DNA of 64,000 bases from Inediibacterium massiliense (GTDB lineage Bacteria > Bacillota > Clostridia > Peptostreptococcales > Thermotaleaceae): the NCBI RefSeq assembly GCF_001282725.1, contig NZ_LN876585.1, positions 126,221 to 190,220 of the forward strand. Reading direction: 5' to 3'. The notes below the pieces were generated by a model. That model did no database searches. It saw only the letters and a list, made by a program, of their open reading frames with translations, and was not told the DNA's origin. Positions 290-50,179 of the stretch are shown here, piece by piece. The position numbers and the translations under genes were made by a program. How positions within the stretch are numbered: position 1 is the stretch's first letter; every line of letters begins with the position of its first letter.

Positions 290-2527
290 ATGAAAAAAAG
301 ACAATATAGGATTTTTAGTATATTTCTATCTTTGTTATTGACAATAGCCTTTACCGTCCCAGCTTTTGCACAAATAGATGTGGATATTCATGTAGATCAT
401 AAAAATATATCTATACAAGGATATTCAGATTATAAACAAAAGCCTGTGATGATTAAAGTAGAAGGTAGAAATAAAAAAGCATACATAGATGAAGAGATGA
501 CAGATGAAAAAGGACAGTTTCAATTTTCATTTCAGGTAGAAGAAGGAAAAGATTATAAAGGAAAAATAAATATTAGTGGAGAAAAAGAAGAGTTTACTTT
601 TCAAACAAAAAAGGATTCAAGTGGAGGATCTTCAGATAAAAAACTCTATGTAAATTTATCCGTTGAAGGATATAATGGAAAAATATTAAGTAAATCCAAT
701 ATAGAAATTCATAAAAATGATACAGTAGGAAAAATTACAAGAAAGATATTCAATGAAGAAGGAATTTCTTATGAAGCAACAGAGGGATATTTTTCCAGTA
801 TTGCAGGGCAAAGAGAAAAAGACAAAGGACCCTATAGTGGATGGATGTATAATATCAATGGAAATACTACAAATGTAGGAGCAGATCAATATAGATTAAC
901 AGGTGGAGAAGATATAAAATGGTATTATACATTAGACTATAGAACAGATAAAAGAAACACCTCAATGGGAGGAGGCGGCGGAAAACCTGTAGATATAGGT
1001 AAAGAAATAGAAAAGGTAAAAAAAGTATTAGAAAATAAAAATGCGAATGAAGATGAAATAAAAAAAGCAATAAAAGATATGACTCACTATATGAATGAAA
1101 AAATAGAAAAAATGAAGACAAAAGAAGAAGAAAAAGAATGTATTTCTGAAATGAAAAATGTATCGCAAAAAATGCAAGAAGTAGTAGAACATATGAAAGA
1201 TCCAAAAGAAGTAAAAGAAATGTCTGAAAAAATTATTGATGTAAATGGAAAGCTGATTGATAAGATAGGAAAAGAAAAAGGAAAAGAAGTTATAGAAAGC
1301 ACTGCTATCATTGCACAAAAGGCAGTTGAAAAAATGAGTATAAAAAATATAGACCAAAATCAAATCAAATTAGAAGGTCAGAGGGCAATCGGAAAAGTAG
1401 AAACACAAACCATTCAAGAAATCATAAAAGATGCAAATAGTATCAAAGAAAAGATAAAAAATAAAATGGGAAAAAATATAACACAAGAAAAAATTACTAT
1501 TGTTGTACCTACTACAAATAAAAAAGAAGTAGAAGCAACACTACCTTCTGGAATGATGAGTTTATTGAAAGAAAATAATATACAAAAGGCAGTAGTTCAA
1601 ACAGAATATGCAGCATTTGCTATTACTCCACAGATATTTGATACAGAGGACACCATTACACTGATTGCAAAAGATATAGATCAAAGTGAATGTATAGATA
1701 TAGTAAAAAATAAAGTAGGAGAAGAAAATAAAATCGTAGATGTAACTGCCAAGATTGGGCAAAATTTTATTAAAGAATTTAAAATACCTATGAAAGTATC
1801 TATCCCATATAAGGGAGAAGTCAAAAATGGAGAAGTAGTACAAGCCTTCTATCTAAAAGATAATGGTATCATAGAAAATATGGGTGGAGTATATGATAAA
1901 GATACTAAGATGATAACTTTTGAAACTACTCACTTTAGTAAATATTTTGCTCAGAAAGTAGGAAAAGAAGAAGTAAAATCAACTTTTAATGATCTAGTTG
2001 GTTATGAATGGGCAACAAAAGCCATAGAAGAAATGGCTCAAAAAGGAATCATCAGTGGAAGAAGTGAAGATGTATTTGACCCTAGTGCATCTATCACAAG
2101 AGCAGAATTTGCAACTCTCATTACAAAAATGCTTGGATTAAACATAGAAAATGAAAAATTGAGATTTATAGATGTAGAGGATACTGCTTGGTATACTCCA
2201 TATGTAAAAACTGCTTACAAAAATGGATTCGTAAGTGGAAGAAATGAAACGATATTTGATCCAAATGGAAAAATTACAAGAGAAGAAATGGCAACGATCA
2301 TTGGAAAGGTACTCATACAAAAAGGAAAAGAAAAAGCAAATATAAATGAATTGGAAAGATTTAATGACAAAACAAATATAGCTTCTTGGGCAAGTGAAAA
2401 TATAGCATTGTGTGTAAAAGAATCTATGATCAGTGGAATGCCTGATGGTAATTTTATGCCAAAACAAAATGCCAATAGAGCTCAAGCTGCTATGATGCTT
2501 TATAATTTATACAAATCCATAAAATAA
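290..2527 (+). CDS. SLH-anchored DUF4430 (transcobalamin-like) surface protein
   Basis: The protein has 745 residues. A signal peptide ends near ...TVPAFA (about residue 27). A small beta domain follows (28-107), then a DUF4430 domain (about 118-217) with the typical GPYSGWMYNING core and a WYYTLDY end. After a five-glycine linker come a Lys/Glu-rich helical, coiled-coil-like stretch (about 235-390), a beta region ending in HFSKYFAQKV, and three SLH repeats (about 565-745; ITRAEFA, ITREEMA and NRAQAAM motifs). SLH repeats bind pyruvylated wall polysaccharide, so the protein should sit on the cell wall with DUF4430 exposed. DUF4430 resembles the C-terminal beta domain of transcobalamin; corrinoid binding is inferred. 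The start follows AAGGAAGAAGGAAG. Full-length paralogues with the same plan lie at 37697-40072 and, with a toroid added, 46937-50179. Confidence 0.88.
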   Translation: MKKRQYRIFSIFLSLLLTIAFTVPAFAQIDVDIHVDHKNISIQGYSDYKQKPVMIKVEGRNKKAYIDEEMTDEKGQFQFSFQVEEGKDYKGKINISGEKEEFTFQTKKDSSGGSSDKKLYVNLSVEGYNGKILSKSNIEIHKNDTVGKITRKIFNEEGISYEATEGYFSSIAGQREKDKGPYSGWMYNINGNTTNVGADQYRLTGGEDIKWYYTLDYRTDKRNTSMGGGGGKPVDIGKEIEKVKKVLENKNANEDEIKKAIKDMTHYMNEKIEKMKTKEEEKECISEMKNVSQKMQEVVEHMKDPKEVKEMSEKIIDVNGKLIDKIGKEKGKEVIESTAIIAQKAVEKMSIKNIDQNQIKLEGQRAIGKVETQTIQEIIKDANSIKEKIKNKMGKNITQEKITIVVPTTNKKEVEATLPSGMMSLLKENNIQKAVVQTEYAAFAITPQIFDTEDTITLIAKDIDQSECIDIVKNKVGEENKIVDVTAKIGQNFIKEFKIPMKVSIPYKGEVKNGEVVQAFYLKDNGIIENMGGVYDKDTKMITFETTHFSKYFAQKVGKEEVKSTFNDLVGYEWATKAIEEMAQKGIISGRSEDVFDPSASITRAEFATLITKMLGLNIENEKLRFIDVEDTAWYTPYVKTAYKNGFVSGRNETIFDPNGKITREEMATIIGKVLIQKGKEKANINELERFNDKTNIASWASENIALCVKESMISGMPDGNFMPKQNANRAQAAMMLYNLYKSIK

Positions 2528-2532
2528 CCGAC

Positions 2533-2560
2533 AAAACGCTAGCAAATGCTGGCGTTTTTT
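2533..2560 (+). terminator. intrinsic terminator after SLH gene
   Basis: The stem AAACGCTAGC / GCTGGCGTTT is followed by a T-run. It is one of five GCTAGC-type terminators that close SLH genes in this locus. Confidence 0.85.
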
Positions 2561-2625
2561 GTTGAATTTTACTTCATATTATCGAAAAATGTCAAACGAA
2601 TTTTGTAAAATATGTAATATATTGG

Positions 2626-2654
2626 TTGAAAAAATAGTAGAAATATGAAATAAT
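2626..2654 (+). promoter_or_regulatory. promoter of riboswitch 1 transcript
   Basis: TTGAAA (2626-2631), a 17-bp spacer and AATAAT (2649-2654) lie about 60 bases before riboswitch 1. The same layout occurs before the other three cobalamin riboswitches, which supports the call. Confidence 0.6.
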
Positions 2655-2711
2655 AATAAAAGAAGTTTGAAATTACTATCCATTATTTATAAAAATAAAA
2701 TTATATATAAG

Positions 2712-2884
2712 CTTTTAGGTTCTTTGATGAATAGTTCAAAGATGAAAAGGGAATTAGGTGAAAATCCTAAACGGTCCGGCCACTGTAAGTGAGGAGCAGT
2801 CCTTCAATATACCACTGAAATATATTTTATTTTGGGAAGGTGAAGGAGAGTGTTGATCCACAAGTCAGGAGACCTACCTAAAAG
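2712..2884 (+). promoter_or_regulatory. cobalamin riboswitch 1
   Basis: The element contains the conserved cobalamin-riboswitch core: AATTAGGTGAAAATCCTAA, CGGTCCGGCCACTGTAAGTG, TTGGGAAGG and the B12 box AAGTCAGGAGACC. A 9-bp P1 stem closes it (CTTTTAGGT 2712-2720 with ACCTAAAAG 2876-2884). P1 changes in a compensating way in the other three copies. An intrinsic terminator follows at 2944-2976, so cobalamin binding probably ends transcription before the 3048-14432 operon. Confidence 0.95.
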
Positions 2885-2943
2885 TTTTGGTACACATCCT
2901 TCCGAAGAAAGGAGAGATACTCACAAAAGTTTATTTTGCGTGT

Positions 2944-2976
2944 AATCCCTATCTTTTTTGGAAGATAGGGATTTTT
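2944..2976 (+). terminator. riboswitch 1 expression-platform terminator
   Basis: The stem AATCCCTATCTT / AAGATAGGGATT is followed by TTT. It lies between the B12 box and the first gene, as expected for riboswitch-controlled transcription attenuation. Confidence 0.85.
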
Positions 2977-3047
2977 AATTTTGCTGATAAGCCTTGAGGC
3001 TTATAAAATATTCAGAGAAAAAACAAAAAATGAAAGGGGACAAAAAA

Positions 3048-3842
3048 ATGAAAAAGACATTATCATTTATGTTAGTATTAACACTTATTTTAAGCTTAGC
3101 AGGTATACCTGCTTTTGCAGCAGATGCAGACATCACAATGCTTACTCTAGATGATTCTAGTGATTTTACAGTAGTAGGATATGGTGACGAACCAGAGGAA
3201 ATGAAGGTAGTAGGTCTTACAAGTAGTTATCAAAAGGTAGATATTGAAAACAAAGAAGGAATTGTTTGGGAAACTTCAGATGAAAATATAGTAGCTTTTG
3301 TTAAGGATGGAAAAGAAGTAGAAGGAAAGACTATCGCTGGACAAGATACAGTAAATATTAAATTAAAAGAAGCTGGACGAGCTACGATCACAGCTACTTT
3401 AGGTGATAAGGACAAGATTACTCCTATTAGTAGTTATATTGTAGTAGAAGAACCTAGTGATAATCCTACAGTTGAAAAAGTTAATGTAAAAATAATAGGA
3501 AAAACTTTTGGACCTGTTGAGGTAAAAGGATTAACATTAACAAATGATAGTTTAGAAGAATATTTTGATGATGCAGACGTATTAAAAGAAAATCCATCTG
3601 CATTACATGCTCTTATGAAAGCTTTAGAACAAGAAAAAGGTAAAGAATGGGTAAAAAATAATATAGTTGTAAAAAATCAAGGTGGTTATGTAGAAAAAAT
3701 AGGTACAGATGATTCAAGTTCAGATTGGTCAAATGGATGGCAATACACAGTAAATGGTCAAAAACAAGAAAAAGCAGCTTCTATTTATGAATTACATGAT
3801 GGAGATAATGTAGTTTGGGAATTTAAAGGCTGGGAATACTAA
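3048..3842 (+). CDS. secreted Big2-like + DUF4430 protein
   Basis: The protein has 264 residues from the ATG at 3048. This start is chosen because GAAAGGGGA lies about 7 bases upstream and a clean signal peptide (MKKTLSF...GIPAFA, 1-24) follows; upstream in-frame codons would spoil the signal. An Ig/Big2-like region (about 30-140) with WETSDENI precedes a C-terminal DUF4430 domain (about 145-264) with NGWQYTVNGQ and DGDNVVWEF. There is no SLH, lipobox or sortase motif, so it is probably released or held by other envelope proteins. It is the first gene behind riboswitch 1 and is followed by a strong terminator, so it may be the most highly expressed product. Its compact plan resembles a soluble substrate-binding protein; corrinoid is the likely ligand by context. 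Confidence 0.85.
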   Translation: MKKTLSFMLVLTLILSLAGIPAFAADADITMLTLDDSSDFTVVGYGDEPEEMKVVGLTSSYQKVDIENKEGIVWETSDENIVAFVKDGKEVEGKTIAGQDTVNIKLKEAGRATITATLGDKDKITPISSYIVVEEPSDNPTVEKVNVKIIGKTFGPVEVKGLTLTNDSLEEYFDDADVLKENPSALHALMKALEQEKGKEWVKNNIVVKNQGGYVEKIGTDDSSSDWSNGWQYTVNGQKQEKAASIYELHDGDNVVWEFKGWEY

Positions 3843-3867
3843 AATAAGAAATCTCTGAATATTTGAA

Positions 3868-3902
3868 AAATACGAGAATTGGATTTCAATTCTCGTATTT
3901 TT
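3868..3902 (+). terminator. intrinsic terminator, probably partial
   Basis: A 14-bp perfect stem, AAATACGAGAATTG / CAATTCTCGTATTT, is followed by TT and G. The next gene starts 29 bases later without a visible promoter, so some read-through is likely. This would give more of the 3048 product than of the genes behind it. Confidence 0.75.
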
Positions 3903-3930
3903 GTGAAAAAATAGAAAGGAGAGATCCATA

Positions 3931-6900
3931 TTGAATAGAAAAATTTTAAGTATTTTGGTAATGATCTGTATGATTTTTACTATGATATTTTCTTCTTTTG
4001 CAAATGAAATAGAAATAGTAAAGAATGAAAATACAAAAGAAACAGTAACCAATGCAGTGTATGAAGAAGATATCAACAAAGAAAGAGATCAAAAAGAAAA
4101 TATAAAAAATCAAAAAAATGTAGAAGAAAAAATACAAAAGGAAAATATAAATTTCCTTGAGAGTACTATAGATCAAAAGGTTACAGATAAGGTGTATGAA
4201 GATTTACAGCTTGTAAAAGTCACTCCAGAAAATGATTCTACTGTATCAGCAAATACAGAAATAGCATTATTTTTTAATAAGCCTGTAGAAATTAGTAATG
4301 TTAGGAAAAAAGCTACTGTAATTTGCTATGAAAAGGATGAAAGTGCAGGAATAGCTATAGGAAATCCTTATTTTAATCAATTAATTGTAAGTGAAGAAGA
4401 TCCTAAAAAGGTAGTTCTTCATTTATATAAAAGAAAAACAAAGAAAGATTATTTAAAAACTGGACATCTTCATGGGATTAGAGTATGGAAAGATGTCATT
4501 CAAGAAAAAAAAGGAAATGAAAAATTTCCAGGAATAGAATTGGATAAATGGAAGTTTTATGTAAAAGAAAAATCCAATAAAGCAAGTAAATTAGAAATAT
4601 TAGATAAAAATTTAAAAAGACTTCATGTAGGTCAATCCATATCTATACCTATAAAAGCTACAAATGATGAAGGTGATTTGCTAACAGATTGTAAAATAAA
4701 TTGGAAAATATATCCTGATGATAGAGGAACGATTGAAAATGGTTTGCTGACAGCAAAAAGTCCAGGAAATATTACAGTTTTAGCATCTGTATATGATGAT
4801 CCTAGGATTAAGGATGATTATTCACTAGAAATAAGAGAAAATTTTTCAAAAACACTTCTGCCTATATGGAGTACTTCAATTGATAAAAAGAAATACAAGG
4901 GATTTCCTATATTAGGAAAAGATGGATCTGTGTATATTGTTACTCAGATATCAAGAAATTCAGATAATTATGAAATTACAGCTTTCAATTCAGATGGAAC
5001 TATAAAGGAAGGTTTCAAAAGTCCAGAAATAAAGAATGCCATAGAAATAGTAGAAGTAGAAGGTGTTGAATATATTTTTGGAACCTTAGAAAATAAATTA
5101 TTTGCTATAAGTCCATATACAGGAGAACTTATATGGCAGGTAGAGTTAGATTCAGAAATTTTGACAACTCCTGTTATCAATTCTTCTGGAATCATATTTG
5201 TAGGATGTGAGGATTCTAGAGTATATGGAGTAGATGGAAAAAGTAAAAGATTCATATGGAAATTTGATACAAAAAACCAAATTTTAAATGATATAAATCA
5301 AGGATACTATGGTCAAATGCCTATAGATGAAAAAGGAAATGTATATACAGTAGCAGGAAATACTTTATTTGTCATACAACCAAATGGAGAGCTTTTGTGG
5401 AAATTTGAAAATCCAGATCCTAGACTATATTTTATTGTTCAACCTGTCATAGGGCATGACAAAACTGTATATATTGCAGATGAAAAAAATTTATATGCAA
5501 TTGATCCATTAGGAAAAATCAAATGGTCAAAGGATGGTATGTATAGAAACTATGACCTAAACTTGAATCAACAACAAATGGTATTAGGAGAAGATGGCAT
5601 TTATATGAGTGTAGCCAAGAAGGATTATGAAGGGCAGGAACAATATGAAACCTTTACAAAATTTGATCCTCAAACAGGAGAGATATTAAAGGAATATCCT
5701 TATCCTTCTTTTTTTGGAAGAATAGGAAAAGATCAAAAGCTTTATACAACTAAAATCATATATGATGAAGCTGGAGAGCCTATGGCTTATTATGATGATT
5801 ACAAAAATGACATACCATATTTTTCATATTCTGCATTTAATTTAGGAGAAGACAATAGCATCTATAGGATATTAAATAGCGAATCTTTGGCAATAGGAAT
5901 AGAAAAAGTAACACTTTATGATACAAAAGATTCAGTGATAGATGATTTGAAATTATATGAAGAAAATATAGTCCTCTATCCAAAGGAAGAACATAGAATC
6001 AAAGCAGAAGTACTAGATCAAAATAAAGCTGTACTATACAATAAAAAAATTATTTTTGAAAGTAATGATCCTGATGTAGTGTCTATTGAAGAAGATGGAA
6101 TGATGAAAGCAAAAAAAGTAGGAGAAGCAACAATTACAATCACTATAAAAGAAAAACCAGAAATTCACAAAAGTATAAATATAAAAGTTATTGAAACACC
6201 TATTCCAGAAAAAATGTATTTTGTATATGATGATGTGGATAGAGGAAATGACCCTCAAAATCAACAAATTGTAGATGTAGAAAAAGGTTTAAAAGGAGTT
6301 TGTGGGGAAGGGTTAAGATCAATCAGAGTTTTTATAGAAGATCAAAATAATAAATTTGCACCCAAACAACCTATAGAATGGATTTTAGAAGATAGTAGTA
6401 TTGTATCTATGCTCAATTATCAAGGTGGTAGTGGAGATGATAAAGTTCGATACAATGCAGTGTTGACAGGAAAGAAAATAGGAAAAACCATATTGACAGC
6501 AAAGCTTGTAGATCATCCTGAAATCACTTGTAGCATTCCTATAGAAATTGAAGCTACACCTTATGAAATCAAATGGGAGGTACCCCTTCAAGGTCATTGG
6601 TGGGAAAAAAGAGCATATCATGTGATGGGCAAAGAGGATGAAATTTTTTATGTCAATGAAAATAGACTCTTGGCAGTCAATAAACATACAGGGAATTCAT
6701 TGTGGATTTCTGAAATAGGAGCTTATTTGGGAATCAATCTAGGTCATCCTAAAATAGATACAAATGGAGATATTTATTTGTATGGAAAAGATAGCACAGC
6801 TTTTATAAAAGTAAATCCAAAAAATGGAGAAATCATATGGAAAAAAGTAGAAGGAAATGATGGAATCAAATCTTTTGAAATAGGAGAAGATGGAGTTTAT

Positions 6901-7902
6901 GCTTTAACTCAAAGAGGAAAGCTTTATCATTTAAATAAAGATGGAGAATTTTTATGGGAGACTCCTTTAGAGGTAGGACAAAACAGTAGTATTCTTTTAT
7001 CTGAAAGTGGAGTTTTGTATTTATCTATGAATGAAAAGGTTTTTGTTCTTCAAAATGAAAAAAAACTTAATAATATCTATACAGGAGAAGGAGAATTATC
7101 TATAGAAGACATTACATCAAATGAAAACATTATATTGCAACAAAAAAAGGGAGAAAAATATAATTTACTTTCTATTGATCAAAAAGGAAATTGCAAATGG
7201 ACATATGAAGGAATAGATGGAAAAGTAGAATTAAGCTGTGATGATCAAGGATCTGTATATGCGGTAGAGAAAAAACAGGATGATTTTTTAAGAGATATAC
7301 ATATTTACTTTTTAAATTCAGATGGCACGGAAAGAGTAAAAAAAGCTTTAGACAAGGTAGGAAGACCAGATGGGGTATACAAGCCTTTGATCGGAAGTGA
7401 TGGAAGAGTATATATATCTTTAGTTCGGTTGTATGTAGTAGATCCTCAAACGGGAGAAAAACAATGGCAAGTATCTTTAAAGGATGCATTTTCTCATCAA
7501 GCTCCAGATACTATTACGGTAGATGAAGATGAAATCATTTATGTGACAGCAGGAGAGAGAGGATTGGTTGCAATAAAAGGAAAAGAAATATCCAATAAAG
7601 GTATTAGCTTAAATATTATTGGAGGAAATAAAGTTTATTTAGGAAGTTTTCAAGATATAAGCCTTGAGATAAAAAACAATTTAAAAGAAAATAAAAATAT
7701 TATTTTAAAAATAAGCTTGTATGATGAAGAAAAAGAAATACAAAATACTTCCTTTAAAGATCATATGAATGCTAAAGAAACAAAATCTTATGATTGTGGA
7801 ATCCATATTCCAGAGGAAGGAAATTATAAAATGACTATAAAAGTCATAGACCAAGAATCAAAAAATGTACTGATTCAAAAAAATATTAAAGTAAAAAAAT
7901 AG
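3931..7902 (+). CDS. secreted protein with two PQQ-type beta-propellers and Ig-like domains
   Basis: The protein has 1323 residues from a TTG start at 3931, placed 8 bases after AGAAAGGAGAG; a signal peptide (about 1-25) follows. The order is an Ig-like Big_5-type domain (about 95-205, PENDSTVSANTEIALFFNKP), a Big2 domain (about 216-295), a first propeller (about 300-650) with repeats such as YTGELIWQVELDSEILTTPV, a Big2 domain (about 660-755), another Ig-like stretch, a second propeller (about 870-1215) and a CARDB-like end (about 1220-1323). The propeller blades match the PQQ/BamB-type repeat. No quinoprotein dehydrogenase catalytic features were recognised, so binding or scaffolding is more likely than catalysis. 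It is in the riboswitch 1 operon. Confidence 0.82.
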   Translation: MNRKILSILVMICMIFTMIFSSFANEIEIVKNENTKETVTNAVYEEDINKERDQKENIKNQKNVEEKIQKENINFLESTIDQKVTDKVYEDLQLVKVTPENDSTVSANTEIALFFNKPVEISNVRKKATVICYEKDESAGIAIGNPYFNQLIVSEEDPKKVVLHLYKRKTKKDYLKTGHLHGIRVWKDVIQEKKGNEKFPGIELDKWKFYVKEKSNKASKLEILDKNLKRLHVGQSISIPIKATNDEGDLLTDCKINWKIYPDDRGTIENGLLTAKSPGNITVLASVYDDPRIKDDYSLEIRENFSKTLLPIWSTSIDKKKYKGFPILGKDGSVYIVTQISRNSDNYEITAFNSDGTIKEGFKSPEIKNAIEIVEVEGVEYIFGTLENKLFAISPYTGELIWQVELDSEILTTPVINSSGIIFVGCEDSRVYGVDGKSKRFIWKFDTKNQILNDINQGYYGQMPIDEKGNVYTVAGNTLFVIQPNGELLWKFENPDPRLYFIVQPVIGHDKTVYIADEKNLYAIDPLGKIKWSKDGMYRNYDLNLNQQQMVLGEDGIYMSVAKKDYEGQEQYETFTKFDPQTGEILKEYPYPSFFGRIGKDQKLYTTKIIYDEAGEPMAYYDDYKNDIPYFSYSAFNLGEDNSIYRILNSESLAIGIEKVTLYDTKDSVIDDLKLYEENIVLYPKEEHRIKAEVLDQNKAVLYNKKIIFESNDPDVVSIEEDGMMKAKKVGEATITITIKEKPEIHKSINIKVIETPIPEKMYFVYDDVDRGNDPQNQQIVDVEKGLKGVCGEGLRSIRVFIEDQNNKFAPKQPIEWILEDSSIVSMLNYQGGSGDDKVRYNAVLTGKKIGKTILTAKLVDHPEITCSIPIEIEATPYEIKWEVPLQGHWWEKRAYHVMGKEDEIFYVNENRLLAVNKHTGNSLWISEIGAYLGINLGHPKIDTNGDIYLYGKDSTAFIKVNPKNGEIIWKKVEGNDGIKSFEIGEDGVYALTQRGKLYHLNKDGEFLWETPLEVGQNSSILLSESGVLYLSMNEKVFVLQNEKKLNNIYTGEGELSIEDITSNENIILQQKKGEKYNLLSIDQKGNCKWTYEGIDGKVELSCDDQGSVYAVEKKQDDFLRDIHIYFLNSDGTERVKKALDKVGRPDGVYKPLIGSDGRVYISLVRLYVVDPQTGEKQWQVSLKDAFSHQAPDTITVDEDEIIYVTAGERGLVAIKGKEISNKGISLNIIGGNKVYLGSFQDISLEIKNNLKENKNIILKISLYDEEKEIQNTSFKDHMNAKETKSYDCGIHIPEEGNYKMTIKVIDQESKNVLIQKNIKVKK

Positions 7903-7917
7903 ACAAGGAGGATTTAT

Positions 7918-11049: not shown

Positions 11050-11050
11050 A

Positions 11051-11080
11051 GATAAGGTGAGAATTTTTTCTCGCCTTATC
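11051..11080 (+). other. intercistronic stem-loop
   Basis: An 11-bp stem, GATAAGGTGAG / CTCGCCTTATC, with an AT-rich loop lies between two genes of the same operon. No T-run follows, so it may be a processing or stability hairpin. Confidence 0.6.
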
Positions 11081-11099
11081 CAAATAGAGGAGGGATCTA

Positions 11100-14432: not shown

Positions 14433-14434
14433 TG

Positions 14435-14463
14435 AAAAAAGCTAGCTTAGGCTAGCTTTTTTC
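14435..14463 (+). terminator. intrinsic terminator after SLH gene
   Basis: The stem AAAAAAGCTAGC / GCTAGCTTTTTT with loop TTAG belongs to the GCTAGC family of the locus. Confidence 0.9.
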
Positions 14464-14562
14464 TATTGAGAAATTTAAAGAAAAATAGGATACATTTCTA
14501 GTGAAGAAAAATAAAGGTCGAAAAATGTCGAGAAAATTTTGAGAAAAATGTAATATATTGTA

Positions 14563-14591
14563 TTGAAAAAAAATGGGATATAAGATACAAT
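14563..14591 (+). promoter_or_regulatory. promoter of riboswitch 2 transcript
   Basis: TTGAAA (14563-14568), a 17-bp spacer and TACAAT (14586-14591) lie about 40 bases before riboswitch 2. GGTCGAA (14516-14522) and TGTCGAG (14526-14532), both close to the Spo0A box TGTCGAA, lie just upstream. Confidence 0.65.
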
Positions 14592-14626
14592 CTATCATGG
14601 TAAGAGAGTATTTAAATTAAATATTT

Positions 14627-14788: not shown

Positions 14789-14875
14789 AATGAGGCATTA
14801 ACCTTCCGAGGAAAGGTGGTATGTAAAGGTAAAATAAGAGTATGTAGATATACATGCATCATGCTTATGTATAAA

Positions 14876-37671: not shown

Positions 37672-37696
37672 TATATAATTGTTGAGGAGGAAAAGA

Positions 37697-40188: not shown

Positions 40189-40258
40189 ATTACATGTCTG
40201 AATTCGACATATTAATACTTTTTTAGTAATAATTATAATTTAAACTACATAGTATTTT

Positions 40259-40425
40259 AATTTAGGTTCTTCTTTTGAGAAGATAAAAAGGGAATTAGGT
40301 GAAAATCCTAAGCGGTCCAGCCACTGTAAGTGGGGAGCAATTCTTTGACATACCACTGAAATATATTTTATTTTGGGAAGGGAAAGGAAAGCGTTAATCC
40401 ACAAGCCAGGAGACCTATCTAAATT
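40259..40425 (+). promoter_or_regulatory. cobalamin riboswitch 4
   Basis: The core elements are GAATTAGGTGAAAATCCTAA, CGGTCCAGCCACTGTAAGTG, TTGGGAAGG and a slightly altered B12 box AAGCCAGGAGACCTATC. P1 pairs AATTTAGGT (40259-40267) with ATCTAAATT (40417-40425), keeping pairing by a G-U. A terminator follows at 40493-40530. Confidence 0.94.
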
Positions 40426-40492
40426 TTTTAGCATACTTCCTTCTAGGGTTAAGGAAAGTGCAAGGTATATAAATGTTTATGAAGATATTTAT

Positions 40493-43500: not shown

Positions 43501-45307
43501 AACTGTGATCCAAGGGTTAATTGCTAATGGTATCAATCCCCTTTATGATAAAGTATGGATGAAAAATAAAAAAACAATGTTAGATAGTATGTTAAAAAGT
43601 AAGTTTGTATCTCCTACAGGAGATTTAAAAAATTCAGGATTTTGTCAAGGAGAAGGATTAGATTTTAAAAATGAGAAAGCTACTTATAATGCTTTTGCAG
43701 CATTAGTGGATATGTATGAAAATAAATCTATGTTTGAAATTCATTCTATCAAATATGATGAAAGTATTCAGCCAAAAGATGTGGCTACCGTTTCTATATT
43801 AAAACCAAAGAATGATAAAATTTTGATAGGACAAGAGCTCAAGCTACAATTAGTTGCTTTTGACGATCAATATAATTGGATAGAGAATCCTTCTATTGTA
43901 TGGTCCTCTTCTGATGAAGATATAGCCAGTGTAAAAAATGGGGTAGTTAATGGAAAAAAAACAGGAAATGTAACCATTACGGCCACTGTAGAAGGTACAA
44001 CTATAAAAAATGAGATGCATTTAAGTGTAGAAGATTTGGAAATAAAAAATGTAAAAATACAATGTAATAAAAATAAAATAAGAAAAGATGATGTTATTTT
44101 ATTAAGTGCAAATTCCTTTGATAAAATAGGCAATGAAATAAAAGGAGTAAAATGTATTTGGTCTGTAGATAATGAAAATGTTGCAAACATATATGAAGAA
44201 GAAGGAAAAATATATCTTAAGGCTTTATCTACAGGAAAAGTAGTGATAAAAGCTGTTTTAGAGGAAAATAAAAATGTTTGTGAGTCTATTTCGATAGATA
44301 TTATCAATAAAAAATCAGCTCAGGTAAAGGTCAGAGTAGAAGGACTAAAAGATATCATCGTACCAGAAATTGAATTAGAAATAGATAATTTTGATATGGC
44401 TTTATATGGAAATGGAAACTCTGTTTTAAAAGAAGCTCCAACAGCTATGAATGCTCTTATAAAAGCTCTAAAGAGTAAAGATATAGATTGTACGGATAAA
44501 AATAAATTTGATGCAGGAATGGATCTATCTATTTTATCAAATATCAATGGATTAAAAGAAGGACAAGAAGGACCTAATAGTGGATGGATGTATTATATCA
44601 ATAATCAATATGTAAATGACTATTTTGTAAATACAACCATAAAGGATGGAGATTCTATATGTGTATTTTATGTGAAGGATTATCAAAAACAATCTTATTC
44701 TTATTTTGATAAAACACAAGTTGTTGTTCAACCTAATGAAGAATTTACTTTGAATTTAAAGACATATATAAGTACAGATATGACAAATCGTGAAAAAACA
44801 AATGTAAAAAATGCTCAAATTCTAGTCAATCAAAAGCCTTATATGATCAATGGAGAAAATATAACAACAGATCATCTTGGAAATGCTACATTAAGATTTG
44901 ATAAAGAAGGAGAATATATGATTGGTGCAGTTTATGAGGATGAAAGCTTAAATATTGTTGCAGCTTATTGTAAAGTAAAAGTTACAAATGATGTAAAAAA
45001 TAATAAATTAGAATGGAGTTTATTAAATCAAGAGGATTTTCATTGTGGAGAAGAAGTAAAACTAAGAATGAAAGTAAAGAATAAAGGAATACAATCTAGC
45101 AATATGATTTGTGTCATTCAATTAATAGATGAAAACAATAAAGTATTAAAGGGAAGTAGTATAGAAAAAGAATTATTAGATGGAGAAGAAACGATTTTAT
45201 CTCCTGGATTTGCTATTCCTGATTGTGGAGAATATAAAATAAAAGTATTTTTGACAGATGAAAAAATAGACCTATCCAAACCAGTAAAAGTGATAAGTAT
45301 CAACTAA
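40571..45307 (+). CDS. secreted protein with two toroids, Ig-like domains and DUF4430
   Basis: The protein has 1578 residues and starts after AGAAAGGAG. A signal peptide (ends near FVYGQ) is followed by two almost identical 111-residue Ig/Big2-like repeats (about 62-283) with a KDCKNCE motif. Next come a Big2 domain (about 287-378), toroid 1 (about 383-670), Big2 (about 673-760), toroid 2 (about 765-1063), two Big2 domains (about 1070-1247), DUF4430 (about 1250-1373, NSGWMYYINNQ), an Ig-like domain and a CARDB-like end (about 1477-1578). Toroid 2 and DUF4430 occur in the transcobalamin order, separated by Ig domains. DUF4430 here closely resembles that of the giant protein (both have a YGxxxxxKExPxAxxALIKALxSKxID pattern). 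It has no wall anchor and is first behind riboswitch 4. Confidence 0.87.
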   Translation: MNKRVMSVLLMIVLLCSGIPFDFVYGQTDHEEDMFIEDQESKIEQKEIGAGESIKEIDNQSKYEKHIAFRSEPKKTEIKVGETISLYAMVVDDEGNEDTYWDDLDGDVPSYTKYSWSSEDEKIAIAKGEQWEEDTGNITGISAGKVKIKIESKDCKNCEAKEIEITVIDDRPKYERHIAFRSKPKKTEIKVGETISLYAMVVDDEGNEDTYWDDLDGDVPSYTKYSWSSEDEKIATAKAGQWEEDTGNITGISVGKVKIKIESKDCKNCEPKEIEITVVEDEPIQEVGEIDHINISLDQDIKEIECGRNIKVNVIAKDKNKKEIKNPQIKWSIEPVDIVTIDEQYIIHTLKEGDVSIKAVTQSTDKEMIESNSITLEVTKSKTREEKIQEAIEELTIRYKNPTFYGSEYTLSKYVGELALSLRYSGMDIEEINNTKRIFPTDAGTYDLLNTSKNIMTLIAVNEDPKKEIEKILDDSFVFYEDIDENKEDKLVYAIIALDMTNAKYDSEKAVKALIHKIKKDDNGNFYFERYENPDMELTAKAMIAFSKHKDIDGAVDAINGIKKFFKSAQSESGLIKEETSFSNQESCLITSAVIQGIIAIGESPLDEYWRIQDQYKNQNNLVDAMLMCRDGQRFKSSFNGSVADIQTNAAMGALVDLKAQASMYHNIKYVKEGAPSRIEIKSNESVVLTEGDQLQIKAIVYDEQNYQIKNPVVLWESSDLTKATVENGVIRALAEGTVKIKAYLENNKEISDEIIIQIQSGISDEVLKQRVKEEIEFLKGYYKEYNQYEFLAAPAAITAGMDKEMIQKKIYRYSRPTALQYARMIIAVRGSGQDPRKDEFKKDTFKNYVDLLRAHQIKDGENKGQFIINESMDSKNIETLACCIMALDMVDADYNKEEAVKALLCLMNVSNKENVSGYEEIKSEALALTALAKHKDIGGVEEKINEWIEYIKKQQNEDGGFDANGGYFKNSPITTGTVIQGLIANGINPLYDKVWMKNKKTMLDSMLKSKFVSPTGDLKNSGFCQGEGLDFKNEKATYNAFAALVDMYENKSMFEIHSIKYDESIQPKDVATVSILKPKNDKILIGQELKLQLVAFDDQYNWIENPSIVWSSSDEDIASVKNGVVNGKKTGNVTITATVEGTTIKNEMHLSVEDLEIKNVKIQCNKNKIRKDDVILLSANSFDKIGNEIKGVKCIWSVDNENVANIYEEEGKIYLKALSTGKVVIKAVLEENKNVCESISIDIINKKSAQVKVRVEGLKDIIVPEIELEIDNFDMALYGNGNSVLKEAPTAMNALIKALKSKDIDCTDKNKFDAGMDLSILSNINGLKEGQEGPNSGWMYYINNQYVNDYFVNTTIKDGDSICVFYVKDYQKQSYSYFDKTQVVVQPNEEFTLNLKTYISTDMTNREKTNVKNAQILVNQKPYMINGENITTDHLGNATLRFDKEGEYMIGAVYEDESLNIVAAYCKVKVTNDVKNNKLEWSLLNQEDFHCGEEVKLRMKVKNKGIQSSNMICVIQLIDENNKVLKGSSIEKELLDGEETILSPGFAIPDCGEYKIKVFLTDEKIDLSKPVKVISIN
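40754..41419 (+). repeat. 333-bp tandem duplication (two units)
   Basis: Unit 1 is 40754-41086 and unit 2 is 41087-41419, an exact 333-base (111-codon) offset. Long stretches are identical, including the part that encodes VDDEGNEDTYWDDLDGDVPS. The duplication stays in frame and doubles an Ig-like domain near the N terminus. Confidence 0.92.
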
Positions 45308-45320: not shown

Positions 45321-46922
45321 ATGATAAGAAAAAATAGGAAGATACTGATTGTAATTGCATGTAGCTGTATTTTTACACTGACTGCTCAACTAGGTATTTC
45401 TTACGGAGATACAGCTTTGCCTAAAAAGTATGATTTAAGAGAAGAAAATAGAGTAACAGCAGTAAGGGATCAAGGAAAGGTGAATGGATGCTGGGCTTTT
45501 GCAGCCCTCTCTTCCCTAGAATCCAATATGAAGGATAAGAATATAGACATAGATTTTTCAGAAAACCATATGATGACCCATCATGGTTTTGATTTAAAAC
45601 CTACCGATGGAGGAAATATTTATATGGCTGTAGCTTACCTTGCAAGTTTTAAAGGACCTGTCCTAGAAGAAAAAGATCCGTACTTGGGAACTCCTATTAA
45701 AAGAGAAATATATGGAGAAGATGCTCAAATTAAAGATGTAATATTTATCCCTAAAAGAAAGGATTTTAAAGATAACGAAAAAATAAAAAAAGCAATCCAC
45801 ACTTATGGAGCGGTTTATACAAATATAAAATGGGATGATGATTATTATAATAAAGAAAAAAAAGCTTATGGAAGTACTAGCAAATTAAAAGGATATGACC
45901 ATACAGTAACCATAATAGGATGGGATGATGATTATCCAAAGGAAAATTTTAAAAGCAATGAAATATATGGAGACGGAGCATTTTTATGTAAAAACAGCTG
46001 GGGAACAAGCTTTGGAGATGAAGGGTATTTTTATATCTCTTATTATGATTTTAATATAGGAGATACTGAAAACGCAGTTTTTGTAGGAAGAGAAAAACAA
46101 TATGACAATATTTATCAATATGACCCATTAGGACAAACTACAGAATATGGTTTTGGAATGGATACAGCCTGGTTCTCTAATATATTTGAAGCTAAAGCTT
46201 CAAATGAAAAATTAAGTGGAGTAAGTTTTTATACTAGAGGAGAAGAATCAGAATATGAAATTTGGATATGCAGAAATTTTGAAGATATCCATTCTTTTTC
46301 AACAAAAGAAAAAATCAAAAGTGGAAAAATAGATTCTATGGGTTACCATACGATTTCTATAGACTCTATTGAACTTTCTAAAAATGAGAAATTCGCAGTG
46401 ATTGTAAAATTAATAACAAAAGGGAGCAAGGATCCTATAGCCATAGAAAGTCCTAAGGGATTTAAGTCTAGTAAAGCAAGATCAAACCAAGGAGAAAGTT
46501 ATATTAGTACAGAAGGAAATGATTGGAAAGATATAACTTTCTATGAACCCAATACAAATGTTTGTTTGAAAGCTTTTACCAATGGAGGAGAAAAGGTTCA
46601 TGTAAAAAGAAATTTATGGATAGAGAAAATAGATTCAATAAGTTTTTCAAATGGAGAGGAAGCTTTCTTAAAATTGAAAATAAAAAATGAAGGAAATCAG
46701 TCAGAGAAAGTAGCTTTAATGGTGGGATTATATGATGAAAATAATAAAATGGTAAATCATAGCTATATTAATGAAGAAATAAAACCTAATGAAGAAATAA
46801 AATTGTCTTCATCTGTATATGTTCCAGAGAAAGGGAAATATACAGCAAGAGGCTTTGTATGGGATGATTCAGACCATGGTATTTCTTATAATAGAAATCC
46901 TATAGAAATAACTATACAATAG
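45321..46922 (+). CDS. secreted papain-family (C1A) cysteine protease
   Basis: The protein has 533 residues and starts after AAAGGGGAG. A signal peptide (about 1-30) is followed by the mature papain fold beginning LPKKYDLREENRVTAVRDQG. The oxyanion Gln and catalytic Cys lie in RDQGKVNGCWAFAALSSLES, the His in GYDHTVTIIGWDDDY, and the Asn in CKNSWGTSFGDEGYF, so the catalytic set is complete. There is no long inhibitory propeptide. A second beta-rich region (about 275-415) fits the lectin-like domain often fused to clostridial C1 proteases, and a CARDB-like domain ends it. It lies between two corrinoid-type surface protein genes under riboswitch 4. It could trim surface proteins or free cobalamin from carrier proteins (inference). 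Confidence 0.9.
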   Translation: MIRKNRKILIVIACSCIFTLTAQLGISYGDTALPKKYDLREENRVTAVRDQGKVNGCWAFAALSSLESNMKDKNIDIDFSENHMMTHHGFDLKPTDGGNIYMAVAYLASFKGPVLEEKDPYLGTPIKREIYGEDAQIKDVIFIPKRKDFKDNEKIKKAIHTYGAVYTNIKWDDDYYNKEKKAYGSTSKLKGYDHTVTIIGWDDDYPKENFKSNEIYGDGAFLCKNSWGTSFGDEGYFYISYYDFNIGDTENAVFVGREKQYDNIYQYDPLGQTTEYGFGMDTAWFSNIFEAKASNEKLSGVSFYTRGEESEYEIWICRNFEDIHSFSTKEKIKSGKIDSMGYHTISIDSIELSKNEKFAVIVKLITKGSKDPIAIESPKGFKSSKARSNQGESYISTEGNDWKDITFYEPNTNVCLKAFTNGGEKVHVKRNLWIEKIDSISFSNGEEAFLKLKIKNEGNQSEKVALMVGLYDENNKMVNHSYINEEIKPNEEIKLSSSVYVPEKGKYTARGFVWDDSDHGISYNRNPIEITIQ

Positions 46923-46936
46923 AGGAGACTATAAAT

Positions 46937-49900
46937 ATGAATAAAAGAAAAATAGGAATGCTTGTATTGTCTTTATGGATGATAGTATCACTTAGTATGA
47001 CTTCCTTTGGGCAAATTATAATAGAGCAACAAATAAAAGGAGAAAATATAATCATTAGTGGTCATAGTGATTATAAAGATCAACCTATTAGTATTCAAAT
47101 TAATGATGAGAAGAAAAAAGTTTATTTTGACCAAGTATTAACAGACAAAGATGGAAATTTCAAATTTCAATCTCAAGTAAATACCAACAAATCATATCAA
47201 GGATACGTATTAGTAGAAGGAGAAAAAGAAAGTTTTATTTTTCATACAGATAAAGAAGATTCTTCTGTAGAAAAAGAAAAAACAAATGAAGAAAGAATTG
47301 AAGAAATTATAAAATCTCTAAGAAAGAAGTATAAAGAAAAAGAAAATTTTACTTTCAGAGAAGCTATAGGATATTGTTATACAAGTGATGATTTAGATCA
47401 TGATAAAGCAACCATAAAGGAAAAATATAAAGAAAAAACAGAATGTAGATATCCAACTGATTATGCAGGAAATATAATAGGAATTATTGCAAAAGGTTTT
47501 GACCCCAAAAAATATGAAGATGGAAAATATGTAGATCTATTGATCAAGGCTCAAAAACCAAATGGAGTATTTGAAATCAATGGAGAAGGAAATCAATCTA
47601 CTCAATTAGCTTGGAGCATCATATCTCTTGATATGGCCAAGGCACAATATAATGAAGAAGGCGCTATAAAAGCATTAATGAATAGTCAAGACAAGCAAGG
47701 AAGTTTTGGAAGTATAGATCATACAAGTATGTGTATGATGGCCCTTCAAAAGCATAAAAATATAAATCAAGTAGAAGATAGAATTATTAAAGCCAAGGAA
47801 TATTTATTTAATCATAAGAAAAATATTATAGAGCAAGGAAACGTATTTACTTTATCTACAGTCATACAAGGACTTGTTTCCATAGGAGGAAATCCTTTAT
47901 CTAAGGATTGGACGGTAGAAGGAAAAAATATGTTTGGAGCATTGTTAGATTGTGAAAAAGATGGACACTTTGGAAGTGGTATGGCAAATGAGCAAGCTTT
48001 TCTAGCTCTTTCAGATTTATATAAAAAAGAATCCATGTTTACAAAAGTCAACATCAATAATGAAGGATTCGACAATTCATCTGGAAAAGAAGAAAATAAT
48101 CCAACAGATCAAGGTGGAGGAAATAAATCAAATCAAGAGCAAAAGGTTAATATATCTATAAAAGGATATGATAACAATCCTAATATTTATAAAAAAGAAG
48201 TTCAAATCAAAAAAGAAGACACTGTTTTAATCCTTACGAAAAAAATATTAGATGAACAAGGTGTTTCTTATGAAGAGAAGAATGGATATTTTAAAAGAAT
48301 AGGAAAATATGGAGAAAAAGATAAAGGTCTTAATAGCGGTTGGATGTTCAATGTGAATGGAGATACACCTAATAAGGGAGCAGGAGAATATGTTTTAAAG
48401 GCAGGAGATGTAATTGAGTGGTTCTATACCAGTGATTATACAAAAGATTCTAGAAATAAAAATAATTCATCAAAAAAAGAAATAGCAATAGATTCGAAAA
48501 TTGAAAAAATTAATGATATTTTCAAGGATAAAAATGCAAAAGAAGAAGATATTACAAAATTAATCAAAGAAGCTGTAGAACAATTTAAAGAAAATGAGAT
48601 TCAAACAGAAAAAGCTGCGCAAGATATGGTGAAATATACAAAAGATTTTTCTAAGTCTATACAAAAGGTTATAGAAAAAGTAAAAAGTGAAGAAGGAGCA
48701 AAAACAGTAGTCAAAGAAAATATAAAAATAGTAAATATATTAGGAAAAGCTTCAGAAAAAATATCTAGATCAGAGAATCAAAAAGAAGTCAATCAAGTAG
48801 TCAAAGAAAATATAGAAAATACTATTAAGCTTATGGATAAAATAAATGATTCTAAAGAAGTTACTATTTTAGCAGGTGAATTTATAGATGCAAATGGAAA
48901 AGTAATTAAAGGAATAGGCAAGGAAAATGCAAAAGATATTATAGAAAATACTCAAAAGCTTATGGAAAAGACTTTGGAAAAAGCAAGTACAAAAAAAATT
49001 GAAAAAGCAAATATAGAACAAGAAAAAGCAACTATTGTAGTAGGTGAAAATACTGTAAAGGAATTGGCTAAGGATATAGAAAATACAGTAAAAATCTTAG
49101 AAGAAAAATGTAATAAAAATCATATAGAAGCTAAGAATATAGAAGGCAAGATGATTCTTCAAATGCCAAATATAAATAAACAAGAAGTAGAAACCATTTT
49201 ACCAGCTAATACAATAAAAATAGCAAAAGAAAACAATATAGAAAAAGTTCTTGTGAAAACAGAAAAAGCAGTGTTTACCCTTACACAAAATACATTTGAG
49301 GAAGTAAAAGACAATATTATATTGAATGTAAAGGAAATAGAAAAAAATACATTGTATTCTTTTATACCTAAAGAAAGTACAGTAGTAGATTTGACAGTTT
49401 ATTTAGGGGAAAAACCGATTAAAGAATTTAAAGAAAAAATAAAAGTAGCTATTTTATACAATGGAGAAGTTAAAAAAGAAGAAGTAGTGCAAGTATTTTA
49501 TCTAAAGGATAAGGAAACTATAGAAAACATGGGTGGTCAATATGATCAAGATACAAAGATGGTTACCTTTGAAACAAGTCATTTTAGCAAATATTTTGCT
49601 CAAAAAGTAGAAAAAGAAGAAATAAAAATAGGATTTCATGATTTAAAAGATTATGAATGGGCAAAGGAAGCTATAGAAGAAATGGCTCAAAAAGGTATCA
49701 TCAATGGAAGAAGTAAAGAGCTATTTGACCCGAGTGCATCTATTACAAGAGCAGAATTTGCAACTTTAATTACAAAAATGCTTCAATTAGATACAGAAGA
49801 TATAAAATTAAGCTTTACAGATGTAAAAGAAAATCAATGGTATGCTCCATATGTAAAAGCTGCTTACAAAAATGGACTCATTAGTGGAAGAAGCAAAACT

Positions 49901-50179
49901 ATATTTGATCCAAATGGAAAAATTACAAGAGAAGAAATGGCAACAATTATTGGAAAGGTACTGACTCAAAAAGGAAAAGAAAAAGCAAGTATAAATGAAT
50001 TAGAAAGATTTACTGATCAAGCAAATATAGCTTCTTGGGCAAATGAGAATGCAGCATTATGTGTAAAAGAATCTATTATTAGTGGAATGCCAGATGGCAC
50101 TTTTATGCCAAAAGAAAATGCAAACAGAGCACAAGCAGCTGTGATCCTTTACAAATTATACCATTTAGTTATAGAATGA
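46937..50179 (+). CDS. SLH-anchored protein with toroid then DUF4430
   Basis: The protein has 1080 residues and starts after AGAGGAG. A signal peptide (ends near SFGQI) is followed by a small beta domain (about 25-108), one toroid (about 116-375, with QGSFGSIDHTSMCMMAL and ending KESMFTKV), DUF4430 (about 404-503, NSGWMFNVNGDTP, IEWFYTSDY), a helical Lys/Glu-rich segment, a beta region and three SLH repeats (about 896-1076). Toroid plus DUF4430 without an Ig domain between is the closest match here to the full transcobalamin/intrinsic factor plan. Its last 1.52 kb copies that of 37697-40072. The last residues (LYHLVIE) differ from the LYKSI ending of its paralogues. Confidence 0.88.
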   Translation: MNKRKIGMLVLSLWMIVSLSMTSFGQIIIEQQIKGENIIISGHSDYKDQPISIQINDEKKKVYFDQVLTDKDGNFKFQSQVNTNKSYQGYVLVEGEKESFIFHTDKEDSSVEKEKTNEERIEEIIKSLRKKYKEKENFTFREAIGYCYTSDDLDHDKATIKEKYKEKTECRYPTDYAGNIIGIIAKGFDPKKYEDGKYVDLLIKAQKPNGVFEINGEGNQSTQLAWSIISLDMAKAQYNEEGAIKALMNSQDKQGSFGSIDHTSMCMMALQKHKNINQVEDRIIKAKEYLFNHKKNIIEQGNVFTLSTVIQGLVSIGGNPLSKDWTVEGKNMFGALLDCEKDGHFGSGMANEQAFLALSDLYKKESMFTKVNINNEGFDNSSGKEENNPTDQGGGNKSNQEQKVNISIKGYDNNPNIYKKEVQIKKEDTVLILTKKILDEQGVSYEEKNGYFKRIGKYGEKDKGLNSGWMFNVNGDTPNKGAGEYVLKAGDVIEWFYTSDYTKDSRNKNNSSKKEIAIDSKIEKINDIFKDKNAKEEDITKLIKEAVEQFKENEIQTEKAAQDMVKYTKDFSKSIQKVIEKVKSEEGAKTVVKENIKIVNILGKASEKISRSENQKEVNQVVKENIENTIKLMDKINDSKEVTILAGEFIDANGKVIKGIGKENAKDIIENTQKLMEKTLEKASTKKIEKANIEQEKATIVVGENTVKELAKDIENTVKILEEKCNKNHIEAKNIEGKMILQMPNINKQEVETILPANTIKIAKENNIEKVLVKTEKAVFTLTQNTFEEVKDNIILNVKEIEKNTLYSFIPKESTVVDLTVYLGEKPIKEFKEKIKVAILYNGEVKKEEVVQVFYLKDKETIENMGGQYDQDTKMVTFETSHFSKYFAQKVEKEEIKIGFHDLKDYEWAKEAIEEMAQKGIINGRSKELFDPSASITRAEFATLITKMLQLDTEDIKLSFTDVKENQWYAPYVKAAYKNGLISGRSKTIFDPNGKITREEMATIIGKVLTQKGKEKASINELERFTDQANIASWANENAALCVKESIISGMPDGTFMPKENANRAQAAVILYKLYHLVIE
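48641..50160 (+). repeat. 1.52-kb near-identical direct repeat, copy 2
   Basis: This is the second copy of 38537-40056. Identity ends within the last codons of the gene, before the terminator, and begins inside the helical region. The exchange therefore kept both reading frames. Recombination between copies would remove about 10.1 kb with riboswitch 4 and the protease gene. Confidence 0.9.

Follow-up and report, generated by a model that had tools for sequence, protein, structure and literature searches.

The 64,000-nucleotide stretch of Inediibacterium massiliense DNA analysed here (the window; positions 126221-190220 of contig C12, NZ_LN876585.1, in a genome of 3.5 Mb and 14 contigs) carries a cluster of genes for exported proteins in which DUF4430 domains and prenyltransferase/squalene-cyclase-type toroids are combined, and which is considered here as a candidate system for the capture and uptake of corrinoids. 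A first-pass annotation of the sequence had placed this system at window positions 290-50179. Between these positions all open reading frames (ORFs) of more than 200 residues lie on the + strand, and the protein starts inspected were judged by eye to be export-like. Neither of the two borders held. The cluster begins with a riboswitch at C12:92105, some 34 kb upstream of the window, and continues beyond 50179 with a NifH-NifD fusion, a NifK-like protein and an energy-coupling factor (ECF) transporter up to the stop of the substrate (S-) component at C12:183060 (window position 56840), a span of 91 kb. The window contains the following features.

290-2527, +, DUF4430 and three SLH, 745 residues (Pfam DUF4430 3.8e-15, SLH 8.8e-34)
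2700-2895, +, cobalamin riboswitch 1 (RF00174, 134.6 bits), terminator-like hairpin downstream at 2944-2973
2994-3842, +, DUF4430 protein, 282 residues (Pfam DUF4430 3.6e-11)
3931-7902, +, beta-propeller/Ig-like protein, 1323 residues (Pfam PQQ_2 7.9e-29, Big_2)
7918-11049, +, beta-propeller, one toroid (residues 573-847) and Big_2, 1043 residues (Pfam PQQ_2; toroid model)
11100-14432, +, two DUF4430 and three SLH, 1110 residues (Pfam, cluster models)
14614-14800, +, cobalamin riboswitch 2 (RF00174, 131.0 bits), terminator-like hairpin at about 14873-14910, by eye
15150-25595, +, giant surface protein, 3481 residues, with seven toroids, Big_2 repeats, one DUF4430 and three SLH (Pfam, toroid model)
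25839-26756, +, DUF4430 protein with lipobox-like motif, 305 residues (Pfam 7.6e-18; motif; AlphaFold2 model)
26771-27586, +, solo toroid, 271 residues (Pfam, toroid model)
27602-31504, +, DUF4430, Big_2, toroid, DUF4430 and three SLH, 1300 residues (Pfam, cluster models)
31645-31832, +, cobalamin riboswitch 3 (RF00174, 133.5 bits), terminator-like hairpin at 31894-31926
31996-37632, +, DUF4430, five toroids and Big_2, 1878 residues (Pfam, cluster models)
37679-40072, +, DUF4430 and three SLH, 797 residues (Pfam)
40247-40436, +, cobalamin riboswitch 4 (RF00174, 122.2 bits)
40571-45307, +, two toroids, Big_2 and DUF4430, 1578 residues (Pfam, cluster models)
45321-46922, +, papain-type cysteine protease with lectin-like domain, 533 residues (Pfam Peptidase_C1 2.9e-28, Lectin_like 1.7e-49)
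46937-50179, +, toroid (47288-48055), linker, DUF4430 (48143-48439) and three SLH, 1080 residues (Pfam, cluster models, AlphaFold2)
50188-50221, +, strong hairpin, a possible terminator or processing site, ahead of the reductase genes (fold z -5.9)
50205-52424, +, NifH-NifD-like fusion, 739 residues, start perhaps 50244 (Pfam Fer4_NifH 1.2e-94, Oxidored_nitro 3.1e-73)
52390-53685, +, NifK-like partner, 431 residues (Pfam Oxidored_nitro 2.9e-45)
53792-54673, +, EcfT transmembrane component (Pfam CbiQ 38.4 bits, cut-off 25)
54646-56217, +, EcfA-EcfA' fused ATPases (Pfam ABC_tran, two stretches; NCBIfam ECF_ATPase_1 365.8 bits, cut-off 315)
56214-56840, +, EcfS substrate component of predicted CbrT (vitamin B12) type (phmmer to 6fnp_A 1.1e-12; profile 9.1e-24)

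Domain composition of the cluster and its relatives

Domains were assigned by a Pfam scan of the 14 proteins between 290 and 50179 and with two hidden Markov models (HMMs), one for the toroid and one for DUF4430, made from the cluster's own sequences. In a control set of 103 proteins, 66 of them reversed and 37 encoded elsewhere than in the cluster, the lowest E-values were 0.059 for the toroid and 0.47 for DUF4430. By these HMMs and RF00174 the whole cluster contains 24 toroids, 15 DUF4430 domains and seven cobalamin riboswitches, with 18 of the toroids and 12 of the DUF4430 domains in the window. Pfam DUF4430 scored above its cut-off in nine of the 14 proteins; in the 31996 protein it was seen only in the genome-wide Pfam search (24.2 bits), all 13 matches of which fell inside the cluster. 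Three SLH stretches apiece were found in six of the 14 proteins (290, 11100, 15150, 27602, 37679 and 46937), and the remaining Pfam types of the cluster are Big_2, PQQ_2 propellers and the toroids. The exported DUF4430/toroid proteins, SLH anchors and four cobalamin riboswitches seen at first pass were all recovered. The statement that such proteins fill the 50 kb is mostly correct, except for the papain-type protease and for the beta-propellers carried by 3931-7902 and 7918-11049; sequence matches of the former propeller protein were designed propellers and BamB-type chains. The combination of toroid and DUF4430 stands for the locus as a whole, but only three DUF4430 domains in the window and one upstream have a toroid of the same chain within 60 residues. 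In the upstream protein at C12:120963 a toroid lies on either side of its DUF4430.

When the proteins at 27602 and 46937 were searched singly against the PDB, solely S-layer/SLH proteins came below E 0.05. The genome also holds a polysaccharide pyruvyl transferase (PF04230), which supports SLH anchoring weakly, since it is found in 8 of 14 control genomes. Median identity amounts to 27% among the 24 toroids and to 20% among the 15 DUF4430 domains. The C-terminal 560 residues are 54-94% alike in six of the seven SLH proteins compared, the giant protein being the exception (27-30%). In 37679-40072 and 46937-50179 these 560 residues are 94% identical and the binding modules far apart; a recent duplication or conversion is one reading of the near-identical anchors.

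The part upstream of the window comprises a DUF4430 protein led by a riboswitch and accompanied by a MoxR/DUF58/BatA/VWA module (L002 6200-18875, C12:92420-105098, the DUF4430 gene being followed by MoxR, DUF58, BatA and VWA genes), further toroid/DUF4430 proteins and a subtilase. The gene at C12:93534 gave zero Pfam matches. Two proteases are found inside the cluster, the papain type (window 45321-46922) and the subtilase (L003 9224-13264), and these might release corrinoids from proteins. Long intergenic palindromes with a common GCTAG/CTAGC core are present at window positions 14434-14463, 50188-50221 and 57047-57080.

Relatives of the cluster were collected from named genomes with profile A5, the lipoprotein alignment, which consists of seven lipoprotein-type sequences and one paralogue. 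It matched 250 stretches, 213 of which were relatives, and the best 80 loci were retained; an earlier scan with the toroid and DUF4430 pair had returned 526 pattern matches and zero relatives. ORFs in these loci were called mechanically and annotated with the same HMMs as the own cluster. The 80 loci are mostly from Clostridia, and also from Aneurinibacillus, Tumebacillus, Chloroflexota, Solirubrobacterales and others, and their gene content includes EcfT-like (58), EcfS-like (55), toroid (59) and SLH (48) genes.

Predicted fold of the toroid and DUF4430 unit

The unit at 47288-48448, in which toroid and DUF4430 adjoin, was modelled with AlphaFold2 from an alignment of 22 sequences, 19 of which came from named loci and the other three from the window. 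The model (pLDDT 91.4, pTM 0.70, only the linker 265-282 below 50) has 13 helices of at least 4 residues in residues 1-246, followed by a beta domain. In a Foldseek search of the PDB the 15 best matches were all transcobalamin, haptocorrin or intrinsic factor, aligned over both domains with E-values from 3.7e-11 to 1.2e-7. These carriers were followed by an isolated transcobalamin beta domain, the beta-grasp protein 3u7z, drimenyl diphosphate synthase and complement C3. VIA-align gave Z of about 20-22 against the carriers, with 322-333 residues over both domains and a root-mean-square deviation (rmsd) of 4.5-5.8; on intrinsic factor (2pmv) 323 residues of model positions 1-383 were aligned with Z 21.6 and rmsd 5.0. 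By its predicted model 47288-48448 is placed in the transcobalamin/intrinsic factor fold family. This bears out the first-pass annotation, which had proposed bacterial counterparts of these carriers, the superpositions ranging from 4.5 to 9.5 Å.

By sequence, the relation to the carriers is only partly visible. The DUF4430 part of profile A7 matched the beta domain of transcobalamin-2 with E 2.8e-4, and Pfam Cobalamin_bind was recognized in the 3481-residue protein at 27.8 bits (cut-off 25) and in five of the 24 toroids at E<=1 (best 4e-5). All 19 adjacent pairs in the 80 loci have the toroid before the DUF4430, with a linker of 6-47 residues, as in transcobalamin. These likenesses suggest that the toroid and DUF4430 modules would bind corrinoids. 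Fragments of intrinsic factor are known to come together again around cobalamin. Split binders are therefore plausible, and a binder may here be formed by a toroid and a DUF4430 from separate chains; two chains closing on the ligand in this way would be new.

The same modules could also be imagined without a small ligand, the toroids as protein-binding, glycan-binding or structural repeats of the S-layer and DUF4430 as a general adhesion domain. The toroids do match TED and glycoside-hydrolase toroids, and Ig-like repeats are many. This explanation is nevertheless highly improbable given the two-domain match to B12 carriers, the cobalamin control and the CbrT-type neighbour, both described below. 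The thioester motif of TED and the DxDD motif of terpene cyclases each occur in 0 of 24 toroids, which likewise speaks against it and makes TED activity and terpene cyclase activity unlikely.

The DUF4430 lipoprotein at 25839-26756 was modelled from 33 sequences (pLDDT 91.5, pTM 0.87). Its predicted DUF4430 superimposes on the haptocorrin beta domain with Z 14.4 and rmsd 1.7 over 95 residues, while the nearest structures to its second domain are BcsB and glycosidase N-terminal domains (Z 8-12). This lipoprotein appears to be the conserved core binder.

Riboswitches, importer and nitrogenase-like proteins

All four riboswitches of the window score well above the RF00174 gathering score of 31.5 (122-135 bits). 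Seven of the 18 cobalamin riboswitches of the genome lie inside the 91-kb cluster, where 0.47 would be expected by length, a figure to be read with the fact that the cluster borders were partly drawn by riboswitches. Riboswitches 1 and 3 are each separated from their gene by a terminator-like hairpin, and one was recognized by eye behind riboswitch 2; none was located before the gene of riboswitch 4. A terminator scan of positions 1-20000 as a whole found 5 against 5.6 in shuffles, and since this is no excess the hairpin calls depend on where the hairpins lie and on how hairpin 1 folds (z -3.3).

In the relatives, riboswitches were searched with model R1, built from 14 copies from these clusters (reporting limit E<=0.05). 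This gave 79 matches spread over 62 of the 80 loci, a density of 56 per Mb, where the own genome has 5.1 per Mb. The next downstream gene was a DUF4430/toroid gene in 61 cases, another gene like those of the own cluster in two, another ORF in 15 and none in one; the median distance to the next DUF4430/toroid gene was 159 nt. From these sequence features, the genes of the cluster are predicted to be under cobalamin riboswitch control, here and in most of the relatives' loci. In Dehalobacter, riboswitch operons go up under corrinoid starvation (PMC4285132); the accessible part of that paper makes no mention of prenyltransferase, S-layer, transcobalamin, DUF or ECF.

The importer closes the cluster. 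A profile of 25 S-components retrieved 6fnp_A (CbrT) from the PDB at 9.1e-24, with the runner-up at 0.7, and 56214-56840 alone matched 6fnp_A at 1.1e-12 over residues 25-198 (phmmer). By sequence, the S-component is homologous to CbrT and stands alongside EcfT and two ATPases; EcfT remained under the NCBIfam cut-off for cobalt CbiQ (21.5 versus 111.8). ECF-CbrT of L. delbrueckii is the reference here: CbrT binds, and the complex transports, cobalamin and cobinamide (PMC5997447, as far as its accessible text goes). No other single finding points to the ligand as strongly as the CbrT-type S-component, as assigned by homology. It also agrees with the earlier idea of collection for import, which had been put forward with the importer overlooked.

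Among relatives, 49 of 77 rows have the lipoprotein-type gene directly 5' of EcfT, and in 16 of the 77 a paralogue precedes the gene at the head of the MoxR/VWA module (both tallied by hand). A solo toroid gene lies directly 3' of EcfS in several relatives. This arrangement bears on another explanation, in which the surface proteins serve to store corrinoids, to sequester them or to keep them from neighbours, instead of feeding the importer, and the ECF transporter needs no more than its own S-component. The 24 toroids and 15 DUF4430 domains seem above the need of one importer, and the L. delbrueckii transporter does transport on its own (PMC5997447, same part of the text). Against this stand the adjoining of the lipoprotein-type gene and EcfT and the toroid genes beside ECF genes in many loci, and this explanation is unlikely.

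The NifH-NifD fusion (NifHD) begins 25 bases 3' of the last surface protein. Pfam places it in the nitrogenase superfamily with both component types (Fer4_NifH 317.3 bits, Oxidored_nitro 247.4 and 155.3 bits). Its NifH half stayed under the NCBIfam equivalog cut-offs of nifH (327.6 versus 394), CfbC (326.4 versus 402), BchL (227 versus 345) and BchX (193 versus 331). Nitrogen fixation is unlikely, since the scores are under the nifH and nifD cut-offs.

Two samples, 148 genomes of the order and 391 of the class, yielded ten NifHD copies, in the own genome, G084 (two), G096, G072, G068, G042, G066, G177 and G485; five genomes of the class sample, the own genome, G042 and G066 included, had a match at E<=1e-120. 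Seven of the ten copies lie inside DUF4430 clusters (own, G084 twice, G096, G072, G068 and G177). In G177 (L129) a riboswitch (34.6 bits, gathering score 31.5) is followed on one strand by EcfT, EcfAA, a toroid-SLH protein, DUF4430, NifHD, the NifK-like protein and EcfS. Cysteines 322, 347, 417, 510, 514 and 699 of the NifD-like chain and 36, 196 and 205 of the NifK-like chain are kept in eight aligned copies; a three-to-one division of cysteines between two chains is reminiscent of chlorophyllide reductase. It is tentatively suggested that NifHD and the NifK-like protein act in the cytoplasm, with the incoming corrinoid or some related tetrapyrrole as substrate. Equally tentatively, they may form part of the uptake by reducing the corrinoid, at the ring or at the cobalt and its ligands, once the partly split wall binders and the CbrT-type importer have delivered it. 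We know of no nitrogenase-type reductase described for corrinoids, and among the matches listed in a literature search none tied nitrogenase-like proteins to corrinoid uptake.

A DUF71-like gene lies directly 5' of NifHD in the G084 and G072 clusters (L025 5400-6068, L026 14313-14972 and L030 4305-5024), assigned by a PF01902 match in L026 and by the start of the sequence in the other two. The accessible text on the DUF71 family predicts a role in B12 salvage (PMC3541065). The own genome was searched for DUF71 and CbiZ, and neither was found.

Proposed uptake route and relation to known systems

Taken together, the locus probably specifies a machine with which a Gram-positive envelope captures corrinoids (vitamin B12-type) and takes them up. 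The earlier reading is supported overall; the tie of the lipoprotein and solo toroid to the importer and the nitrogenase-like enzyme had escaped it. When corrinoid is scarce the riboswitches would permit transcription, as expected from their type and the terminators. In the outer wall, corrinoids would be retained by S-layer-anchored proteins with many modules of the predicted fold, a toroid on one side of the ligand and a DUF4430 beta domain on the other, the two belonging to one chain or to two chains that meet on it. Near the membrane, the membrane-bound DUF4430 lipoprotein and the separate toroid may take the corrinoid and pass it to the CbrT-type ECF transporter, which would bring it inside. 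There the NifH-NifD fusion and the NifK-like protein could serve as an ATP-driven, low-potential two-component reductase of the imported corrinoid or a related tetrapyrrole.

A number of observations weigh against this reading. Terpene cyclases fit the toroid alone equally well (VIA-align Z to 21.7, about 235 residues, rmsd about 2.6) and squalene-hopene cyclase comes first in sequence-profile searches with the toroids, so that the toroid alone is not diagnostic and the pair with DUF4430 is. With a pTM of 0.70, a disordered linker and Foldseek rmsd values of 7.6-9.5 Å, the model does not fix how toroid and DUF4430 lie to one another, so that a closed cleft between them is only presumed. The profiles of the toroid, the 15 DUF4430 domains and the lipoprotein family (A1, A2 and A8) found no animal carrier at E<=10. 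In 18 of the 80 loci no riboswitch matched; ten of these have less than 5 kb upstream of the match, an excuse that the remaining eight do not have. NifHD lies 12 kb from DUF4430 with other genes between in G042 and far from any in G066, and in G485 there is no DUF4430 in the 20 kb examined around it. It is missing from the DUF4430-rich relatives G023 and G035, which marks it as accessory. The hairpin at 50188-50221 may terminate the transcript before NifHD, so that co-transcription with riboswitch 4 is uncertain. The genome also has genes for corrin synthesis (CbiD, a CobB/CobQ-type gene and a long operon judged by eye). This runs contrary to the pattern that bacteria with transcobalamin-like surface proteins usually lack key B12 genes (accessible text of PMC1796856), and the need for scavenging is not obvious.

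Finally, the same riboswitch regulon holds NEAT-domain, CobN-like and CbiK proteins, the latter two with export-like starts, and these may point to heme or other tetrapyrroles. The modules might then catch another tetrapyrrole (heme, F430-like or a chlorin), which the nitrogenase-like enzyme would reduce, and only the regulation would be by cobalamin. A nine-NEAT protein in the regulon, the CobN-like and CbiK proteins, the sub-threshold matches of the CfbC, BchL and BchX models to the NifH half, and the existence of ECF transporters for heme all accord with it. The S-component, on the other hand, is of a proven B12 type, the folds match B12 carriers and most relatives' loci are under riboswitch control, so we regard another tetrapyrrole as an unlikely ligand compared with a corrinoid.

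The regulon members outside the cluster are as follows. L117 (C13:307600-317600, 82-9209) has a riboswitch, a 1704-residue protein with nine NEAT stretches, a binding protein, a FecCD-type permease and an ATPase; the NEAT domain is a heme-binding domain. L118 (C14:543000-553000, 91-6344) has a riboswitch, a NifH, two component-1-like proteins (268 and 402 residues) and a PF01497 binding protein whose permease and ATPase were recognized by eye, and is a second nitrogenase-like/transporter operon of the genome. CobN-like proteins and a double CbiK-type chelatase lie 3' of cobalamin riboswitches at L120 1504-7828 (-), L127 2385-3830 and L121 2190-3920. One of the CobN-like pair (export-like starts) stands beside MotA/ExbB; the other matches the N-terminal part only and lies behind group II intron matches.

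The idea of scavenging by such proteins is not new, as it was predicted in 2007. According to the accessible text of that study (Burroughs, Balaji, Iyer and Aravind, 2007; PMC1796856), secreted fusions of SLBB (DUF4430-type) domains and toroids of low-GC Gram-positives, with CbiO/CbiQ genes, are predicted to scavenge B12 or its precursors, their paralogues to form surface complexes, and animals to have obtained theirs from Gram-positives. Its main text is without SLH, S-layer, riboswitch, ECF or NifH, and nitrogenase occurs solely in the title of a reference. Apart from this study, none of the literature matches listed dealt with the function of bacterial DUF4430. In comparison with the SLBB clade of 2007, the present cluster has 24 toroids, up to seven per chain, a CbrT-type S-component, NifHD and corrin synthesis genes. 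What is new here is the extreme multiplication, the SLH anchoring, the packing of DUF4430 lipoprotein and solo toroid with ECF genes in relatives, the identity of the importer, and the link of the capture system to a NifK-like protein and a NifH-NifD fusion of a rare kind.

Animal transcobalamin, intrinsic factor and haptocorrin share the order of alpha/alpha toroid and beta-grasp domain, but at 13-16% identity; the bacterial units are wall-anchored and multivalent, often have their domains in different chains, and are predicted rather than known binders. The S-component is homologous nearly over its full length to that of L. delbrueckii ECF-CbrT (PMC5997447, accessible text), which likewise has an ECF module, whereas here the module is dedicated, EcfA and EcfA' are fused and binding proteins are linked. 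Bacteroides BtuG/BtuH would be alike in role, capturing corrinoids at the surface before an importer, in another type of envelope. CfbCD, DPOR, COR and nitrogenase also combine a NifH-type ATPase with two component-1-like parts; here NifH and NifD are fused, score below the equivalog cut-offs and adjoin a B12-type importer.

The domain-based prediction of 2007 would thus take the shape of a concrete machine, in which multivalent binders anchored on the wall, a lipoprotein paired with a toroid, an importer of B12 type and a reductase linked to them can each be named. The locus also gives a lead to the substrate of an orphan branch of the nitrogenase superfamily. The diverged binding modules on conserved anchors would fit selection for different corrinoids, and the system bears on the competition for B12 among Gram-positive anaerobes and on the origin of the animal B12 carriers.

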